Positions 40,135 through 51,428 of a stretch of 64,000 nucleotides of DNA are shown here, in pieces. The notes under the pieces were generated by a model that was given only the letters and a program-made list of their open reading frames with translations, ran no database searches and was not told the DNA's origin. The translations under genes were made by a program, and so were the position numbers. Source of the stretch: Flavivirga algicola (GTDB lineage Bacteria > Bacteroidota > Bacteroidia > Flavobacteriales > Flavobacteriaceae); the NCBI RefSeq assembly GCF_012910715.1, contig NZ_JABBHF010000011.1, forward strand, positions 1 through 64,000, written 5' to 3'. Numbering within the stretch: position 1 is the stretch's first letter; each line of letters starts with the position of its first letter.

Positions 40135-41397
40135 ATGCAGAAGTACAACATATCAAGAAGTAACTACTTTTATGCCATTGGTTTAAGTTATAAAAAAGCC
40201 GATGCAGATATTAGAGGTCGCTTTAGTTTAGACGAAGAAGGCAAACAAGCTTTGCTGAACCAAGCAAAGGAAAATGACATTGAAAGCTTGGTGGTTACAT
40301 CGACTTGTAACCGAACCGAAATTTATGGTTTTGCGCAGCACCCTTTTCAATTAATTCAATTACTTTGTGACAATACAAGAGGTACGGTAGAAGAATTTCA
40401 AGACGTCGCCTATATCTACAAAAATAAAGATGCTATTGCCCACATGTTCCGTGTTGGTTCTGGTTTAGATAGTCAGATTCTTGGAGATTTTGAAATTATT
40501 AGCCAATTGAAGTCCAGCGCTCGCGCTTCAAAAAAACACGGATTACTAAATCATTTTTCAGAACGATTGGTAAATGCTGTTATTCAAGCGAGCAAACGTA
40601 TCAAGACTGAAACTAATATTTCCTCTGGAGCAACTTCGGTGTCTTTTGCTTCTGTTCAATACATTTTTAACACAGTTAAAGATGTTTCAAACAAAAATAT
40701 TTTGCTTTTCGGAACTGGAAAAATAGGCAGAAATACTTGTGAAAATCTTGTAAAGCATACCGAAAATGAACAAATCACTTTAATCAACAGAACCAAAGGC
40801 AAAGCAGAATTAATTGCTGGAAAGTTCGACCTGATCGTTAAAGATTATGCAAATTTACAAGAAGAGATTAGTAAATCTGACATTTTAATTGTTGCCACAG
40901 GAGCCCAACGCCCTACTATCGATAAACATATCATTCAGTCTAAAAAACCGCTTTTAGTTTTAGATCTGTCAATTCCAAAAAATGTAGACTCTAATGTTGA
41001 AACGTTAGACAACGTTACCTTGGTTCATTTGGATCATTTATCTAAAATCACAGATAAAACTTTAGAAGAAAGAAAAAAGCATATTCCTTTAGCAGAATCT
41101 ATTATAGAAGAAGTGAAAACGGAATTTAATCAATGGTTAGAAACCAGAAAGTTTGCTCCAACTATCAAAGCGTTAAAACACAAGCTTACTAATTTTGCTT
41201 CTGCCGAATTAGAAACGCAACGCAAAAAAAATGCTGATTTTAATGAAGCTCAGGCAGAACTAATTAGCAGCAATATCATTCAAAAAATAACCAACCACTT
41301 TGCGCATCATTTAAAAGATGACAATATCTCCACTGATGACAGCCTGGAACTTATAAAAAAAGTATTTCAGTTAGAAGAACCAACAACGCATGTCTAA
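40135..41397 (+). CDS. hemA: Glutamyl-tRNA reductase
   Basis: From the ATG at 40135 the enzyme has 420 residues. The nucleophilic Cys is in VVTSTCNRTEIYG, HMFRVGSGLDSQILGDFEI is the glutamyl-tRNA binding helix region, and ILLFGTGKIGRNTCENL is the NADPH-binding fold. A C-terminal dimerisation domain ends the protein. It makes glutamate-1-semialdehyde, the committed step of C5-pathway heme synthesis. It is first in the plus-strand heme operon and its stop overlaps the hemC start by 8 bases. hemL, needed for the next step, is not in the window. Confidence 0.95.
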   Translation: MQKYNISRSNYFYAIGLSYKKADADIRGRFSLDEEGKQALLNQAKENDIESLVVTSTCNRTEIYGFAQHPFQLIQLLCDNTRGTVEEFQDVAYIYKNKDAIAHMFRVGSGLDSQILGDFEIISQLKSSARASKKHGLLNHFSERLVNAVIQASKRIKTETNISSGATSVSFASVQYIFNTVKDVSNKNILLFGTGKIGRNTCENLVKHTENEQITLINRTKGKAELIAGKFDLIVKDYANLQEEISKSDILIVATGAQRPTIDKHIIQSKKPLLVLDLSIPKNVDSNVETLDNVTLVHLDHLSKITDKTLEERKKHIPLAESIIEEVKTEFNQWLETRKFAPTIKALKHKLTNFASAELETQRKKNADFNEAQAELISSNIIQKITNHFAHHLKDDNISTDDSLELIKKVFQLEEPTTHV

Positions 41398-42967
41398 AAT
41401 CATTAGAATTGGCACACGCGATAGTGAATTAGCACTATGGCAGGCAAACATTGTACAACAACAACTCGAAAATTTAGGATATAAAACAGAACTTGTACCA
41501 GTAAAGTCGACAGGCGACTTGGTTTTAGACAAGCCTTTATATGAGCTAGGTATTACTGGAATTTTTACGCGTACTCTAGATATTGCCATGCTAAACCATG
41601 ACATTGACATCGCTGTACATTCCCTAAAAGATGTGCCTACAGTTTTGCCAAAAGGGATAACCCAAGTGGCCGTTTTAAAACGAGGCAATGTAAATGACAC
41701 CCTCGTCTTTAAAAAGAACGAAGAATTTCTAAGCTCAAAAAATGCAACCATAGCTACAGGAAGCCTAAGGCGAAAAGCACAATGGTTAAATAGATATCCC
41801 ACACACACGATTGAGGATTTACGTGGTAATGTAAATTCAAGATTACAAAAGCTAGAAGACAATGCCCATTGGAATGGAGCTATTTTCGCGGCCGCAGGCA
41901 TAGGGCGTATTGGAATAAGACCCGACGAAGCCATTAATCTGGACTGGATGGTTCCTGCTCCTGCTCAAGGCGCTATTATGATAACTGCTCTAGAGGAAGA
42001 TGACTATGTAAAAACGGCATGTGCTGAATTAAATCATGAAGAAACTGAAATTTGCACCACGATTGAGCGTGCATTTTTAAACCGGTTAGAAGGTGGGTGT
42101 ACGGCACCTATTGGAGCTTTAGCCAAAATTAAAAATGAAGAAATACATTTTAAAGGTATCCTTTTAAGTAAAGATGGCTCAAAAAAAATAGAAATCACCA
42201 GAACCGAAAAACTAGGTAAGCATCAAAATTTAGCTGTCTTTTGTGCCGATTATATTATAGAGCGCGGAGGCAAACGATTGATGGATGACATTAAATACGC
42301 AAACAAACCAACAAATGTGATCTCTACTAAATCTTTAACCGAAGACCAGCGTTTATTGTTTCACGAAAAAGTAATTGCGAAAAGTGATGATTTTATCAAA
42401 ATAAGTTTAAATCGTATTCGCCCGCAACTCCTAAAATCTGAAATAAGAAATGTCATTATAACGAGTAAAAATGCTGTCGATGCTCTGGTGACAAACTATT
42501 CGGCCGCCGAATTACAATTTAAAAACATTTACTGTGTTGGACGACGAACCAAAAGACTTATTGAAAGTAAAATTGGCAAAGTAAAACACATCGAAAAAAA
42601 TGCACAAAAGCTGGCAGAATATTTAGTAGAATACCTTGAAGGTACCGAAGTAACCTATTTTTGTAGCGACATAAGATTAGATGCATTACCCTTAACCTTG
42701 GCCGAAAACAATATAAAAGTTAACGAAATAGAAGCTTATCAAACTAAATTTGACGGTCATAAAGTTGAAGAATCGGTAGAAGCCGTGATGTTTTACAGTC
42801 CATCTACCGTACAAAGTTTTGTACAAAAAAATGGTGCAGATGTTATTGCCTTTTGTATTGGAGACACTACGGCAAAAGAAGCAAAAAACCATTTTAAAGA
42901 TGTCAGGGTTGCAAAAGTCCCAACGGTTGAAAGTGTCATTGAATTAGTAAATGAACATTATATCTAA
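41390..42967 (+). CDS. hemC-hemD: Hydroxymethylbilane synthase fused to uroporphyrinogen-III synthase
   Basis: The 525-residue fusion begins with HMBS (about 1-305): IGTRDSELALWQAN, HSLKDVPTVLP, TGSLRRKAQW, and NRLEGGCTAPIGA with Cys237 carrying the dipyrromethane cofactor. It continues with a HemD domain (about 308-525): VIITSKNAVDALV, IYCVGRRTKRLIE, VMFYSPSTVQSFV and AFCIGDTTAKEA. The fused enzyme would pass the unstable hydroxymethylbilane directly to the cyclising step. The start overlaps hemA by 8 bases and the stop overlaps the next gene by 1 base. Such fusions are known in Flavobacteriaceae. Confidence 0.95.
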   Translation: MSKIIRIGTRDSELALWQANIVQQQLENLGYKTELVPVKSTGDLVLDKPLYELGITGIFTRTLDIAMLNHDIDIAVHSLKDVPTVLPKGITQVAVLKRGNVNDTLVFKKNEEFLSSKNATIATGSLRRKAQWLNRYPTHTIEDLRGNVNSRLQKLEDNAHWNGAIFAAAGIGRIGIRPDEAINLDWMVPAPAQGAIMITALEEDDYVKTACAELNHEETEICTTIERAFLNRLEGGCTAPIGALAKIKNEEIHFKGILLSKDGSKKIEITRTEKLGKHQNLAVFCADYIIERGGKRLMDDIKYANKPTNVISTKSLTEDQRLLFHEKVIAKSDDFIKISLNRIRPQLLKSEIRNVIITSKNAVDALVTNYSAAELQFKNIYCVGRRTKRLIESKIGKVKHIEKNAQKLAEYLVEYLEGTEVTYFCSDIRLDALPLTLAENNIKVNEIEAYQTKFDGHKVEESVEAVMFYSPSTVQSFVQKNGADVIAFCIGDTTAKEAKNHFKDVRVAKVPTVESVIELVNEHYI

Positions 42968-43384: not shown

Positions 43385-44413
43385 ATGATTAAAAATGATT
43401 TATTTTTAAGGGCTTTAAAAGGAGAGACTGTTAACCGCCCACCAGTTTGGATGATGCGTCAAGCTGGACGTTACTTACCAGAATTTATAGCCATTCGCGA
43501 AAAATACGATTTCTTTACACGTTGCAGAACTCCAGAATTAGCCAGTGAAATCACCGTACAACCTATTCGTCGCTACGGCATGGATGCCGCTATTTTATTT
43601 AGTGATATCTTGGTTATTCCTCAGGCCATGAATATTGAGGTGCAAATGAAACCTAATTTTGGCCCGTATTTGCCAAACCCTGTACGTAGTCAAAAAGATG
43701 TCGACAATGTTATTGTTCCTGACGTAACAACAGAATTGGATTATGTATATCAAGCTATAAAAGCGACAAAAGAATTGCTCAACGACGATATCCCATTAAT
43801 TGGGTTTGCAGGCTCACCTTGGACCATTTTATGCTATTGTGTGCAAGGTCAAGGAAGCAAGACCTTCGATAAGGCTAAGGAATTTTGCTTTACCAATCCG
43901 ATTGCAGCACACCAAATGCTTCAAAAAATAACCGATACGACCATTGCTTATTTAAAAGAAAAAGTAAAAGCAGGTGTTAATGCTGTTCAGGTTTTCGATT
44001 CCTGGGGAGGTATGTTATCTCCAACCGATTATCAGGAATTCTCGTGGCAATACATCAATCAAATTATTGAAGCCTTAAAAGATGACGCTCCAGTAATTGC
44101 TTTTGGCAAAGGCTGTTGGTTTGCACTTGGCGACATGGCAAAAAGCAATGCCTCTGCTTTAGGCGTAGACTGGACATGTTCACCAAGAAACGCCCGTTAT
44201 TTAACTGGTGGAAACATAACACTTCAAGGTAATTTCGATCCGTCTCGTTTACTGTCTCCTCCTGCAGAAATAAAGAAAATGGTACACCAAATGATAAACG
44301 AATTTGGTAAAGACAAATACATTGTAAACCTTGGACACGGTATTTTACCTAACATTCCGTTAGATCATGCCAAGGCATTTATAGATGCAGTAAAAGAATA
44401 TAACCCCTCTTAA
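43385..44413 (+). CDS. hemE: Uroporphyrinogen decarboxylase
   Basis: The 342-residue enzyme has the diagnostic N-terminal motif [17 protein letters not shown] (about 18-34), [19 protein letters not shown] in the middle, and [16 protein letters not shown] and [10 protein letters not shown] toward the end. It converts uroporphyrinogen III to coproporphyrinogen III in the cytoplasm. It follows the repeat-filled gap after the DUF1330 gene and may depend on readthrough or its own promoter. Nothing is truncated. Confidence 0.96.
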
Positions 44414-45812: not shown

Positions 45813-46160
45813 ATGCCACATTTCGTAATTGATTGTTCAGAAAACATTTTAACGCTACAGCAACCCGATAAAATTATACAAGAGGTTCATAAATGCGCTG
45901 TCGATACAGGATTATTTGATGAAACAGATATTAAAGTACGCCTAAACCCTTTTAAAGAACATTATTTGATCGGTGGCAAAAAAGACGACTTCATTCATGT
46001 TTTTGCAAATATTATGGAAGGTAGAACAACAAAACATAAAGCGAATCTTTCAAAACAAATTGTTACACAATTAAAGTTTTTGTTTCCTACAATTCCTTTT
46101 ATTGCCATGAACATTAGAGACTTTGAAAAAGCGACATACTGCAATAAAGATATGATCTGA
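45813..46160 (+). CDS. 5-carboxymethyl-2-hydroxymuconate isomerase-like tautomerase
   Basis: The 115-residue protein starts MPHFVIDCSENIL, so Pro is exposed after Met removal as the catalytic base of the tautomerase superfamily. VRLNPFKEHYLIGGKKDDFIHVFANIMEGR follows (described by its ends), as in CHMI. No other homoprotocatechuate pathway gene is present, so the physiological substrate is uncertain. It is the last heme-operon gene before the palindrome and RAYT insertion. Confidence 0.85.
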   Translation: MPHFVIDCSENILTLQQPDKIIQEVHKCAVDTGLFDETDIKVRLNPFKEHYLIGGKKDDFIHVFANIMEGRTTKHKANLSKQIVTQLKFLFPTIPFIAMNIRDFEKATYCNKDMI

Positions 46161-46189
46161 AAATGGAGGATAAATTTTCCAAAAACAGT

Positions 46190-46216
46190 CTTCTCAGGTT
46201 TTTAAAACCTGAGAAG
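46190..46216. repeat. REP-like palindrome, upstream copy
   Basis: Perfect 13-base arms cttctcaggtttt / aaaacctgagaag around a single T. It lies between the tautomerase stop and the RAYT start and could also form an RNA hairpin in the operon transcript. Confidence 0.85.
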
Positions 46217-46233: not shown

Positions 46234-47724
46234 ATGTCATTAGCAAAAATAGAAAAAGGCCATTACTACCATATTTTCAATCGAGGAATAAATAGCAATG
46301 TTATTTTCAAAACGGAAGATAATATGGACTATTTTCTAAATTTAATAAAAAAGTATTTGGACAATAAAGTTAGTATAGTTGCTTACTGTTTATTGAATAA
46401 TCATTTTCATCTTATTGTTAAAATTATTGAAAATGAATCGATAGTAACTCAAGCATTCTCTAACCTTTTTAATGCTTACGCAAAAGCGTTTAACAAACAA
46501 CAAAATAGAACAGGGACTCTTTTTGAAAGACCTTATAAAAGAATAAGAATTAATAATGAAGCATATTTAAAAAACCTTATTCTTTATGTACATAAAAATC
46601 CTGAGCATCATAAAATTGTTGAAAATTTTGAAGATTATCAATATACATCTTTTTATTCTTACATTATTGGAAATAAAAATATACTTTCTACTGAAAAACA
46701 ATATGTTTTAAATCTTTTTGAAGATATCGAAAACTTTAAATATGCACACAAATCAGACCTGTCAGGTTTTGAAAGCCTGACAGGTCTTAGTGACAACCAA
46801 AAAAATCAATCCAAAACCTCTATGAAAGATAAATTTTATCAATATATACAAGATTTACAAGACCGTATAACTTCGAAGCTAGAAGCTATAGACGGCAAAG
46901 CAATTTTTCAAGAAGACCTATGGAAACGTCCTGAAGGCGGTGGCGGACGTACCCGCGTTATTGAAAATGGGAATGTTTTCGAAAAAGGAGGCGTAAACAT
47001 TTCTGGTGTTCATGGGAAGCTTCCAAAATCAATGCAAGCCTATTTTAAAGTAGGAGATGTCGATTTTTTCGCCTGTGGATTAAGCTTGGTTTTACATCCT
47101 AAAAACCCTATGGTACCAACAGTTCATGCTAACTGGCGTTACTTTGAAATGTATAATAAGCAAGGGGAAATTATTGATAGTTGGTTTGGGGGCGGACAAG
47201 ATTTAACACCCTATTATCTGTTTGAAGAAGATGCTATTCATTTTCATCAAACCTGTAAAACGGCTTGCGATAACCACAATTCAGAGTTTCATCCAAAATA
47301 CAAAGCACGTTGTGACGAGTATTTTTACAACGCCCATCGTAATGAAGGCAGAGGTGTTGGCGGTTTGTTTTTCGATTATTGTAAAGCTTCAGAAGCCATG
47401 ACCATGGAAAACTGGTATGACTTTGTAACCGAAGTTGGAGATAGCTTCTTGGATGCTTACATACCAATTGTTGAAAAGAGAAAAAATTTAAAGTACACAC
47501 AAGCACAACGTAACTGGCAGGAAATACGTCGCGGACGCTATGTGGAATTTAATTTAGTACATGATAAAGGCACCCTTTTTGGATTGAAAACCAACGGACG
47601 TATAGAAAGTATTTTAATGAGCTTACCGCCTCATGTACAATGGGTTTATGACCATCAACCTGAAGCTGGAAGTGAAGAAGAAAAGTTAATAGAAGTTTTA
47701 AGAACACCTAAAAACTGGGTTTAG
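46234..47724 (+). CDS. RAYT transposase fused in frame to coproporphyrinogen III oxidase
   Basis: One uninterrupted 496-codon frame encodes two unrelated proteins. Residues 1-170 are a Y1/RAYT transposase: GHYYHIFNRGINSNVIF, CLLNNHFHLIVKI with the HUH-type His57 and His59, RTGTLFERPYKRIRI, and the catalytic Tyr118 in LILYVHKNPEHHKIV. Residues 173-188 (KSDLSGFESLTGLSDN) are encoded by a palindrome. From Met197 a complete 300-residue HemF follows, with GGGGRTRVIENG, PTVHANWRYFE, WFGGGQDLTPYY, RGRYVEFNL and a final NWV. Ribosomes starting at 46234 must make the fusion. HemF alone could start at 46822. An assembly join is unlikely but should be excluded. Confidence 0.85.
   Translation: MSLAKIEKGHYYHIFNRGINSNVIFKTEDNMDYFLNLIKKYLDNKVSIVAYCLLNNHFHLIVKIIENESIVTQAFSNLFNAYAKAFNKQQNRTGTLFERPYKRIRINNEAYLKNLILYVHKNPEHHKIVENFEDYQYTSFYSYIIGNKNILSTEKQYVLNLFEDIENFKYAHKSDLSGFESLTGLSDNQKNQSKTSMKDKFYQYIQDLQDRITSKLEAIDGKAIFQEDLWKRPEGGGGRTRVIENGNVFEKGGVNISGVHGKLPKSMQAYFKVGDVDFFACGLSLVLHPKNPMVPTVHANWRYFEMYNKQGEIIDSWFGGGQDLTPYYLFEEDAIHFHQTCKTACDNHNSEFHPKYKARCDEYFYNAHRNEGRGVGGLFFDYCKASEAMTMENWYDFVTEVGDSFLDAYIPIVEKRKNLKYTQAQRNWQEIRRGRYVEFNLVHDKGTLFGLKTNGRIESILMSLPPHVQWVYDHQPEAGSEEEKLIEVLRTPKNWV
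46755..46787. repeat. REP-like palindrome translated as the linker of the fusion
   Basis: Arms at 46755-46770 and 46772-46787 (agacctgtcagg... / ...cctgacaggtct) pair over 16 positions with one G-T mismatch, centred on 46771. Its 33-base length is a multiple of three and it contains no stop in the fused frame. Confidence 0.9.
46822..47724 (+). CDS. hemF: Coproporphyrinogen III oxidase, oxygen-dependent (internal start of the fused frame)
   Basis: The ATG at 46822 would give a stand-alone 300-residue enzyme, the normal HemF length, beginning MKDKFYQYIQDLQDRI. It decarboxylates coproporphyrinogen III to protoporphyrinogen IX using O2 in the cytoplasm. The conserved His in VPTVHANWRYF and the EFNLVHDKGTLFGL segment are intact. 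There is no stop between the upstream RAYT and this ATG and no clear promoter box in the 35 bases before it. Production therefore depends on internal initiation or on an active fusion. Confidence 0.8.
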   Translation: MKDKFYQYIQDLQDRITSKLEAIDGKAIFQEDLWKRPEGGGGRTRVIENGNVFEKGGVNISGVHGKLPKSMQAYFKVGDVDFFACGLSLVLHPKNPMVPTVHANWRYFEMYNKQGEIIDSWFGGGQDLTPYYLFEEDAIHFHQTCKTACDNHNSEFHPKYKARCDEYFYNAHRNEGRGVGGLFFDYCKASEAMTMENWYDFVTEVGDSFLDAYIPIVEKRKNLKYTQAQRNWQEIRRGRYVEFNLVHDKGTLFGLKTNGRIESILMSLPPHVQWVYDHQPEAGSEEEKLIEVLRTPKNWV

Positions 47725-50361
47725 TTATCTCCACACGACTACTTGTTTAGAAACCTTTTTAAAAACATGATAAATATGAGATAACCTGGCTTTTAACAGT
47801 AGTTTTCTACCCTCAATATGCCTGGTATAAAACAACTTATTGCTTCCTAAATAAATACGCCAATATTTCCGAAATACTAATGCGTTTTCCTTTTTGTCTC
47901 CAAAAATTTCTGGAACAGAATAAAAATTCCCTGTATTTAAACGGCTTTTGAAAAAACTTGTTTTTACAATTAAATATCTTGGAGATTCAATCGGCTCTAA
48001 AATGTCGCTCAAAGCTTTAGAGAATAATGAATTCTCTAAAGCATTCCCGCCTAATAAATCACATATAATGTCGCCATTACCAGTACGTCTTGACTCAATA
48101 CTTATTGCATTTTTATTGGTTGTCATAAAACCCAATTCATATAAAGAATCAAGTATTACGAGTCCCATCTTTTTTATTTTTTTATCGAGATATCCATACC
48201 TTATGTAAAGTGTAATCGCTTTATATAATTTATAACCAAAAGACACTAAAAAAGCTATCAAAAAAGTATATAAAAAATACTTAATACCCCGACTTAAAAT
48301 AACATGAATACTTTTAAAAATGAACTCAAGATAAAACAACAGCATAGCAAAAGATAATTCTGCCACAAAAAATCGTACTGCATCAAAATAATAGATCTGT
48401 TTCTGCTTTTTATAAGGGCGTTTATCTAAATGAAAAAACTTGACTTCTTTTGTTAAACCTGTACCTTTCTCAATCGCATCACTCCATCTTTTTATAATAT
48501 CGCTTCTATTAACAGAGCGCTCCAACGTTTGTACATTTAGAGCTTCAATATCTTCTTCTAAAATTTGTTCTGGGAATTGCAACCGTTCAAAACCATTTTC
48601 AATATATGCCTGGCTGCTATTTGAAACGCCAACGAAGGCTTCAAATCTTCGTCTTAAAATATCAACATCTCTACCACCATTAGTAACGGTGCTATCAATA
48701 CATGCTAAATGCCAAATGTTTCCTGTTTTGTTTATTTGATCGGGATCCTTTCTAACAGCCCTTCCTCGCATTTGATTAGAGGACACAAACGAACCAACAA
48801 ATGATGCTAAAATTAAACTATTTATCGATGGAGCATCCCAACCCTCTCCCAGTAAAGATTTTGTGCCAACCAAAATTTTAATATCGCCATTTTCAAAAAG
48901 TTCAGTAATAATATTTACAATCGTATTTTTTGTTTTCTTTTTAGGTGTTACTACTAAAAACGCATTATCTACTTGCAATGGGGTAAATGAAAAATTATTG
49001 CAATCTTCAATGAGGTCAAATGCCTTTAAAATAGCGTTATGAATTAAAACCAAACTCCCAGAAACTACCGCTAATGTTTCTTTATTCGAAAAATACATTC
49101 TTAAATAATGAAAAATAGGAATAACACCTATTTTATTAATGGTTTCGGTCTCCTCTTGCCCAACATTCAAAAACTCTTTTCTAATATAATCTGTTAACAC
49201 GACACACCTTAAATCACTATGCAAACTTCTATATTCTGAAGTAACAATACTTACAATACTATTGAGCTTACTTGGGCTGCTTGCTAAAGATTTATAAAGC
49301 AAATCTTCACCAACAAAATTCACTTTTCTCTTTTCAAATACGTTTATCTTTCTCAATGTTTTTTCTAACCTCAAGAGGTATGGTTCATTTTCTAACAATT
49401 GCCCCCTATCGTTAATCAATAAGTTTTGGAATAAAATTTCTAACCATTCCAAATTTAAAACAGGAAACATTATGGTTTCCTTTTTATTAAAACCTAGTAC
49501 TTCTAATTTATGCCTTTCAATTGCTACTCCACATGCATTTAAAAAAATTAGAATGGCCGAAAAATATTCAGTATTGGAATAAAGCTCTTCTAAACAAGCC
49601 TCGGTTTCATTAAAAAATCGGTGTTGCTTTATAAAAGAAATAAAAACGTCATCATTTAGCAACCCATCTTTAAAATCGGCAATTTTTCGCCTGTACTCAA
49701 CAATAAAATTAATCTCTATATCTTCTGGTTTAGAAAAATAAACTAAATCCTGATGGGCGCATAAATCTGTCTCCCTTACCAAATCTGGTACTGCAATTTC
49801 ATCATCTATTTCACCGCAAAGTGTAAAATACTTCGAGACTTCTATTCTACTACTGTCATAAGGAGGTGTTGCCGTTAATGCTACAACAAAAAAAGAATTA
49901 TTGTTTTTTAAATCAATTAAACAATTCCACCATTCATTTTTAAGGTGATGTGCTTCATCTAAAACAAGTGTTTTAATCTGGCGTTCTTTAAAAAAAGCAT
50001 AGTAACTACTTTTATCTTCAAATGTTTTATAAAAGGCATGCAAAGATTGGTAGGTTACAAAGGTAATATCGCTTGGAGATTTTATATTAAAAGAATACGA
50101 TTTATACGTTTCTTTTTTAGTAAAAAAAGATTGTAATCTATCCTCCCATTGGTTCCTAATAGTAAGCGTTGGAGCAAGCACTAATGTTTTTTCACCTAGT
50201 CTTCTTAAAATTTCAATACCTAAAATTGTTTTTCCGGAACCAGGGGGCGCTATAACATGAAAATGGTCATCTGATATGTGATTATCAAAGTTTTTTAAAA
50301 GATTTGCCTGATAACTTCTCCATGGGAAATTAAATTCTAAATGACCAAACGATTCACTCAA
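47725..50361 (-). CDS. SF2 DEAD/DEAH-type helicase with C-terminal membrane domain
   Basis: The 878-residue protein has a complete SF2 core: a Q-like region WRSYQANLL, Walker A APPGSGKTIL (39-48), motif Ia LAPTLTIRNQW, motif II LDEAHHL (134-140), motif III ALTATPP and motif VI SSNQMRGRAVRKDP (about 540). After about residue 660 it changes character: two to three membrane helices at about 664-723 (LSFAMLLFYLEFIF, YFLYTFLIAFLVSFGY), then a 155-residue tail rich in basic and aromatic residues. A helicase anchored in the membrane is unusual and suggests defence or DNA uptake, but no partner gene is adjacent. It lies antisense between hemF and hemB, whose stop and start it abuts. Confidence 0.82.
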   Translation of the reverse strand: MSESFGHLEFNFPWRSYQANLLKNFDNHISDDHFHVIAPPGSGKTILGIEILRRLGEKTLVLAPTLTIRNQWEDRLQSFFTKKETYKSYSFNIKSPSDITFVTYQSLHAFYKTFEDKSSYYAFFKERQIKTLVLDEAHHLKNEWWNCLIDLKNNNSFFVVALTATPPYDSSRIEVSKYFTLCGEIDDEIAVPDLVRETDLCAHQDLVYFSKPEDIEINFIVEYRRKIADFKDGLLNDDVFISFIKQHRFFNETEACLEELYSNTEYFSAILIFLNACGVAIERHKLEVLGFNKKETIMFPVLNLEWLEILFQNLLINDRGQLLENEPYLLRLEKTLRKINVFEKRKVNFVGEDLLYKSLASSPSKLNSIVSIVTSEYRSLHSDLRCVVLTDYIRKEFLNVGQEETETINKIGVIPIFHYLRMYFSNKETLAVVSGSLVLIHNAILKAFDLIEDCNNFSFTPLQVDNAFLVVTPKKKTKNTIVNIITELFENGDIKILVGTKSLLGEGWDAPSINSLILASFVGSFVSSNQMRGRAVRKDPDQINKTGNIWHLACIDSTVTNGGRDVDILRRRFEAFVGVSNSSQAYIENGFERLQFPEQILEEDIEALNVQTLERSVNRSDIIKRWSDAIEKGTGLTKEVKFFHLDKRPYKKQKQIYYFDAVRFFVAELSFAMLLFYLEFIFKSIHVILSRGIKYFLYTFLIAFLVSFGYKLYKAITLYIRYGYLDKKIKKMGLVILDSLYELGFMTTNKNAISIESRRTGNGDIICDLLGGNALENSLFSKALSDILEPIESPRYLIVKTSFFKSRLNTGNFYSVPEIFGDKKENALVFRKYWRIYLGSNKLFYTRHIEGRKLLLKARLSHIYHVFKKVSKQVVVWR

Positions 50362-50435: not shown

Positions 50436-51428
50436 ATGTATCCATTAAAAAGAAACAGAAGATTAAGAACCAATAAAGCCATTCGCTCTTTAGTTCGCGA
50501 AACTATTATTACTCCTAATGATTTTTTAGTGCCCTTATTTGTTGTTGAAGGCAAAGGGGTTAAAGACGAAATACCATCCATGCCTAACTATTTTCGCTAC
50601 AGTTTGGATTTGCTTGAAGGCGAAGTAAAAGCATTATGGAAGTTGGGTTTGAAATCGGTATTACTTTTTGTAAAAGTTCCAGATAATTTAAAAGACAATA
50701 AAGGGACTGAAGCTTTAAATCCTAACGGACTTATGCAACGTGCTATAAAAACCGTAAAAAATGTTTGTCCTGATATGTTGGTTATGACTGATGTAGCCTT
50801 AGATCCATATTCGGCTTATGGTCATGATGGTATTATTGAAAACGGACAAGTTTTAAATGATAAAACCGTAGACGTTTTAAGTGAAATGAGCATTTCCCAT
50901 GCTCAAGCAGGTGCAAACTTTGTTGCTCCCAGCGATATGATGGATGGACGTATTCTATCTATTCGAGAAGCTTTAGAGGATGAAGGTTTCACCAATACAG
51001 GTATTATGAGCTATTCGGCAAAATACGCCTCGGCGTTTTACGGGCCATTTCGCGATGCGCTAGACTCTGCTCCAGTAGATCTAATTGATATCCCAAAAGA
51101 CAAAAAAACCTATCAAATGGATTATGCGAATCGTTTTGAAGCGATTAGAGAAACCGAAATGGATATTGATGAAGGAGCAGATATTGTCATGGTTAAGCCA
51201 GGCCTATGCTATTTAGATATTGTAAGAGAAATCAAAAATGACGTGGACGTTCCTGTTGCTGTATATCAGGTTTCCGGCGAATATGCCATGTTAAAAGCTG
51301 CTGCCGAAAAAGGCTGGTTAGAGCATGATGCCGTAATGATGGAACAAATTACCGCTATTAAACGTGCAGGTGCAGATATTATAGCCTCCTACTTTGCTAA
51401 AGATGTGGTTAAAATTTTAAATACTTAA
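50436..51428 (+). CDS. hemB: Porphobilinogen synthase (delta-aminolevulinate dehydratase)
   Basis: The 330-residue enzyme joins two aminolevulinate molecules. The Schiff-base lysines are visible in GIMSYSAKYASAFYGPF and DIVMVKPGLCYLDI. In the metal loop DVALDPYSAYGHDGII the usual zinc cysteines are replaced by Ala and Asp, marking a Mg-dependent rather than zinc-dependent enzyme. It lies beyond the helicase on the plus strand with its own promoter box, and completes the heme set here apart from hemL. Confidence 0.96.
   Translation: MYPLKRNRRLRTNKAIRSLVRETIITPNDFLVPLFVVEGKGVKDEIPSMPNYFRYSLDLLEGEVKALWKLGLKSVLLFVKVPDNLKDNKGTEALNPNGLMQRAIKTVKNVCPDMLVMTDVALDPYSAYGHDGIIENGQVLNDKTVDVLSEMSISHAQAGANFVAPSDMMDGRILSIREALEDEGFTNTGIMSYSAKYASAFYGPFRDALDSAPVDLIDIPKDKKTYQMDYANRFEAIRETEMDIDEGADIVMVKPGLCYLDIVREIKNDVDVPVAVYQVSGEYAMLKAAAEKGWLEHDAVMMEQITAIKRAGADIIASYFAKDVVKILNT

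Follow-up and report, generated by a model that had tools for sequence, protein, structure and literature searches.

A single reading frame in the genome of Flavivirga algicola joins a transposase to an enzyme of heme synthesis, which raises the questions of whether such a gene is real, whether it is read as one protein or two, and how it came about. RAYTs (TnpA-REP) are widespread, mostly single-copy enzymes, and both their benefit to the cell and their movement are still debated. In the window (the whole stretch of 64,000 nucleotides analysed here), a preliminary description had pointed to one stop-free frame in which an intact-looking RAYT runs into a complete HemF within a heme gene cluster. 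This was borne out, and the arrangement proved to be common to relatives: the RAYT-HemF fusion gene (46234 – 47724, forward strand) is an open frame of 496 amino acids, both halves match families in Pfam and NCBIfam, and the fusion is conserved in 36 distinct loci of the Flavobacteriaceae. We propose, with a probability of about 0.6, that a mobile RAYT cassette was joined in frame to the 5′ end of hemF and so became costly to lose.

Structure of the fusion gene and its hairpins

The RAYT domain, a Y1/HUH transposase (46234 – 46752, forward strand), was identified by Pfam, NCBIfam, alignment and fold comparison. Pfam Y1_Tnp matched residues 10 – 121 with 23.9 bits against a cut-off of 23, and NCBIfam REP_Tyr_transpos gave 53.7 bits for the whole protein and 57.7 for the domain alone, below its cut-off of 80. 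The HemF domain, an oxygen-dependent coproporphyrinogen oxidase which keeps its own ATG (46822 – 47724, forward strand), was matched by Pfam Coprogen_oxidas at residues 201 – 495 (446.3 bits, cut-off 31.8) and passed the NCBIfam cut-off (421.6 versus 297); it is complete by these curated cut-offs, as it is in 24 of 24 members of an alignment of fused proteins. His57, His59, Tyr118 and Met197 (46822) were found where the preliminary description had placed them.

An AlphaFold model with 24 fused proteins as input reached a mean pLDDT of 70.9 and a pTM of 0.48. The Y1 domain was mostly modelled at pLDDT 70 – 92 and the HemF domain had several weak stretches; residues 178 – 194 of the linker (46753 – 46821, forward strand) fell below 50, and the linker is predicted to be disordered. 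In Foldseek, the HemF half resembled solved coproporphyrinogen oxidases (38 – 51% identity), and among Y1 proteins the RAYT half fitted the RAYT-REP complex 4er8 best. The RAYT sequence profile found no solved RAYT chain among PDB sequences at E ≤ 0.01, and this match comes from fold comparison alone.

Perfect or near-perfect REP-like hairpins lie on either side of the RAYT, and as single strands both are much more stable than shuffled sequences. REP-L (46190 – 46216; DNA fold z -5.6), upstream of the RAYT, has diverged from the genome consensus. REP-R (46755 – 46787; z -6.7) has copies in the genome, encodes part of the linker and is translated there as SDLSGFESLTGL. Allowing up to 3 mismatches, the palindrome was present in 7 copies in the genome of the window (REP-R among them), in 7 – 23 copies in each of the six occupied genomes of the genus, which carry the fusion, and in 8, 10, 10, 0, 0 and 0 copies in the six empty ones, which have hemF without RAYT; a reversed control pattern gave 0 copies in all genus genomes. 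In G005, the listed genome copies mostly had a CTGCCAGG core, and the hairpin immediately upstream of its RAYT has this core as well.

An isomerase-like gene (45813 – 46160, forward strand) immediately precedes hemF in most empty relatives, and downstream of it in the window, just before REP-L, what is probably a remnant of the earlier hemF start was recognised by eye (46163 – 46188, forward strand). Against the first 16 nucleotides of hemF it ranks second among the matches in the window, with 2 mismatches and in a tie with one other site. The RAYT of G007 (L056) is preceded by a longer relic, a decayed copy of the hairpin, the linker and about 100 nucleotides of a hemF start; it looks as though a second cassette was inserted where the fusion already existed. 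Relics of the hemF start in both places appear to suit insertion at this site better than loss.

Distribution and genomic setting

Within the genus Flavivirga, the fusion was found in 6 of 12 genomes and hemF without RAYT in the other 6; both states that the preliminary description proposed to look for among relatives therefore exist. A survey of 397 genomes of the family found the fusion in 17, spanning 16 genera among the matches listed, where loci were taken for the best 30 matches and the remaining long frames from the match table. In a class survey with even sampling (395 genomes), long fused frames were found in G000 and G158, and the RAYT piece of G722 continues into an unrelated reading frame. 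A collection by species added Algibacter, Flaviramulus, Hanstruepera, Mariniflexile, Seonamhaeicola, Hyunsoonleella, Gelidibacter and Winogradskyella. The 110 loci examined comprise the 80 of this collection (23 fused, 57 separate) and 30 others (17 fused, 13 separate), and removal of duplicates left 36 distinct fusions, G006 included. The group that bears them consists mostly of marine bacteria. RAYTs were said in the preliminary description to stand alone normally. This does not hold for these 36 loci, where the frame continues into hemF, but separate RAYTs also occur, and in 9 of the 80 loci of the species collection a separate RAYT has hemF downstream in the same cluster.

An artefact of sequencing or assembly, or a chance open frame, can practically be dismissed for the set, since the same in-frame join recurs in 36 distinct loci; five of the fused genomes (G004, G158, G190, G201 and G378) are listed as one-contig assemblies, so that the set cannot be put down to misassembly. 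The same RAYT ending in a stop in relatives had been named as a sign of error, and such a case does exist in other species. The RAYT of Seonamhaeicola aphaedonensis (L107) is 99.8% identical to the fused one of Hyunsoonleella jejuensis (L160), and one extra CAAT unit right before the hemF ATG of L107 splits the two frames. This difference shows that the fusion can be toggled, and is not a sign of error.

The heme cluster of the window consists of hemA (40135 – 41397), a hemC/uroporphyrinogen-III synthase fusion (41390 – 42967), hemE (43385 – 44413), two further genes, the isomerase-like gene, the RAYT-HemF fusion and then hemB (50436 – 51428), where hemA, hemE and hemB are the names that we presume for these genes. 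The hemC and uroporphyrinogen-III synthase parts form a single frame of 525 amino acids. A helicase-like gene on the opposite strand (47725 – 50361) lies between hemF and hemB and is missing from this position in several relatives. In another genus (G018; L063 / L091) a separate RAYT is located 11 bp upstream of hemE, again within the heme cluster.

HemN was considered as a backup enzyme and rejected, since each of the 12 genus genomes has just one HemN_C protein, and that of the window's genome (384 amino acids) we take to be HemW by its motif. HemF appears to be the only coproporphyrinogen oxidase detectable, and the cell probably needs this heme enzyme.

Start codon and selection on the two halves

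The frame had initially been read in two ways, as coding for one fusion protein or as a HemF gene starting internally at 46822. In 21 of the 36 fusions, that of Flavivirga amylovorans (L099) among them, the HemF ATG has gone and is replaced by ATC (11), ATA (3), ACC (3), or TTA, CTC, GTC and TTT (1 each), and the next in-frame ATG lies 67 – 68 codons into HemF. Because the start codon is missing and the next is about 68 codons in, HemF is most likely made only within the fusion protein in these loci, and a single polypeptide is their likely product. The ATG is kept in the other 15, the window among them; since it survives at 46822, a fusion protein and a separate HemF are both possible there, as in the other 14 such loci. 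Many of the loci without the ATG offer an alternative codon in frame upstream, TTG or GTG; the distance is usually tens of codons, but in L095 a GTG lies only 4 codons ahead of the HemF start. An N-terminally extended HemF could conceivably be made from such codons.

It is possible but unlikely that the RAYT frame is only a translational leader, which couples and doses the translation of a HemF made separately from its internal start. The ATG kept in the window and 14 other loci would fit this, as would three relatives in which RAYT and hemF are separate genes that touch or overlap (a gap of 5 bp and overlaps of 4 and 11 bp), the layout of translational coupling. A leader of this kind is difficult to reconcile with the 21 fusions whose HemF start has given way to diverse codons, although the upstream TTG and GTG codons, from which a longer HemF may start in many of them, limit that objection.

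All three catalytic residues (His, His and Tyr) are preserved in 35 of 36 fusions (23 of 23 in the species collection, 3 further Flavivirga and 9 of 10 others); in the exception, L074 (G167), the first HUH His is Gln, the HemF ATG is kept, and another, separate RAYT is present in the same genome. Within the genus, dN/dS (NG86) was 0.07 – 0.20 for the RAYT (10 of 15 pairs, those with finite dS) and 0.04 – 0.07 for hemF (15 of 15 pairs), and both genes are under purifying selection. We infer that the RAYT domain is an active-looking single-strand DNA nuclease.

Probable movement of the cassette and its proposed explanation

The preliminary description had regarded the fusion as a domestication, and a single event of this kind was not borne out: within the genus, occupied species are interspersed with empty ones. 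A tree built on seven heme-cluster genes from 15 genomes (15 of the 16 fetched regions, G017 being left out) did not show the fused members of the genus as monophyletic; G007 grouped with the empty G001/G009 (85) and G010 with the empty G003 (91). One compact junction is found in most of the six empty genomes and relatives, where no more than a few bases separate the end of the upstream gene and the hemF ATG.

Two cases were found in which similarity between species is higher in the cassette (hairpin, RAYT, hairpin and linker) than in hemF; the switch lies at the first codons of hemF. Among G004, G006 and G010, RAYT dS is 0.38 – 0.45 versus 0.81 – 1.04 for hemF. The RAYT of G010 is closest to those of G004 and G006 (dS 0.44 – 0.45 versus 0.99 – 1.04 for hemF), and its hemF most resembles the one in the empty G003 from the first 60 nucleotides onwards, with third-position identities of 0.80 – 0.86 there and in most windows of the comparison. 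Between Algibacter 2-1026 and H. jejuensis, the RAYT is 96.7% identical in nucleotides and hemF 83.1% (third positions 0.95 versus 0.61), and windows of 60 nucleotides gave 0.93 – 1.00 from REP-L to the hemF start versus 0.68 – 0.92 on both sides outside. These comparisons suggest that the cassette has been passed between species in one piece, and at least twice independently of hemF. AU tests rejected a common tree for RAYT and hemF, but since mutual rejection was seen among control heme genes as well, and the hemE tree fits the hemF data worse than the RAYT tree does, the tests do not discriminate and were dropped as proof of transfer.

The cassette that we propose would consist of a REP-like hairpin, a RAYT without a stop codon, a second, translated REP-like hairpin and a short linker, and would be attached in frame to hemF at its 5′ end. 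Most likely one polypeptide would result, in which a flexible linker connects an active-looking nuclease domain to HemF. The HemF start codon would then decay in many lineages, after which the RAYT could no longer be dropped, because the only coproporphyrinogen oxidase detectable would go with it; the fusion would in this way protect the cassette from loss. Spread between species would take place at the hemF site alone, with entry either by recombination through the hemF flanks, which would explain the relics and edges, or by cutting by the RAYT. Three of the six empty genus genomes have 8 – 10 REP-like palindromes, so loss may occur beside gain. Some observations sit less easily with a mobile cassette. 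RAYT and hemF divergence are correlated over the 35 loci compared (0.80 for all positions, 0.76 for third positions), so that much of their history is common to both; the HemF ATG is kept in 15 of 36 fusions including the window; and L074 is without the first HUH His.

The correlation would also be expected from an old fusion passed on mostly vertically, in which the RAYT serves the cell, e.g. in REP binding or heme-linked control, and the empty species have lost it. We think this improbable. Purifying selection on both genes agrees with it, and so do Arenibacter and others, where an unfused RAYT gene adjoins hemF. Cassette-bounded identity between species speaks against it, as does a RAYT dS of about half that of hemF in the Flavivirga trio, and repeated loss would need to restore the compact isomerase-hemF junction shared by the empty species. 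A single domestication with vertical descent is likewise improbable, as it fits poorly with the breakpoints in G010 and between Algibacter 2-1026 and H. jejuensis.

The mobile cassette may have a second home. Among six genomes of another genus, a RAYT is joined in frame to a PIF1-type helicase in G257, G813 and G814; the helicase occurs without RAYT in G413 and G811, and G812 yielded just a RAYT piece. The fusion in G257 (L215:2118-5195) encodes a 1025-amino-acid protein with PIF1, HRDC and HTH_40 domains, and a different palindrome is translated inside its RAYT and in its linker. Of the three, L224 lacks an ATG near the helicase start; in L223 one lies three codons upstream, and in L225 it is kept. 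Tentatively, the RAYT cassettes of Flavobacteriaceae could be homing-like selfish elements specialised on the 5′ ends of conserved genes, with hemF as main home and the PIF1-type helicase as second, in which a stop-less RAYT, a readable terminal REP and decay of the host start would together block removal.

Homing elements such as inteins occupy a fixed site in a conserved gene, have occupied and empty relatives, spread independently of the host gene, and encode a nuclease. The RAYT cassette resembles them in its fixed hemF site, its occupied and empty relatives (6 of 12 each) and its predicted nuclease, and in two cases it seems to have spread independently of the host gene as well, against an overall correlation of the two divergences; it differs in that it sits at the 5′ end and is not spliced out. 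It resembles known RAYTs in its HUH and Tyr residues, in 4er8 as best fold match and in flanking REP-like hairpins with genome copies. Unlike them, its RAYT lacks its own stop codon, is joined to HemF and scores below the NCBIfam cut-off. A GT(A/G)G head has been described for REP sequences (PMC2817692), whereas by eye no such head was common to the palindromes here (39 fetched, with the hairpin properly found in 38, not in L194). HemF is complete in the fusion, but has an N-terminal RAYT extension and has lost its start codon in the 21 loci above. According to a 2018 survey of the enzyme family, TnpA-Y1 subclasses 2.4 and 2.6 both occur in Bacteroidetes, the former with REP sequences inserted inside its gene and the latter with atypical flanking structures of which further copies occur in the genome (PMC6006769); host group, REP in the gene and copied flanking structures are all shared with the present fusion. 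Unexpectedly long proteins, gene fusions included, were set aside in that survey (PMC6006769). A search of openly licensed PMC papers found none on a RAYT-HemF fusion; the parts are known already, and the arrangement and its spread were not found in the literature searched.

The RAYT is thus tied in frame to a probably needed heme enzyme across dozens of species, and relatives with an empty site are there to compare them with. It can therefore be tested directly what keeps a RAYT in a genome, service to its host or the cost of losing it, and the arrangement suggests how a mobile element may come in at the beginning of a conserved gene and leave that gene intact.
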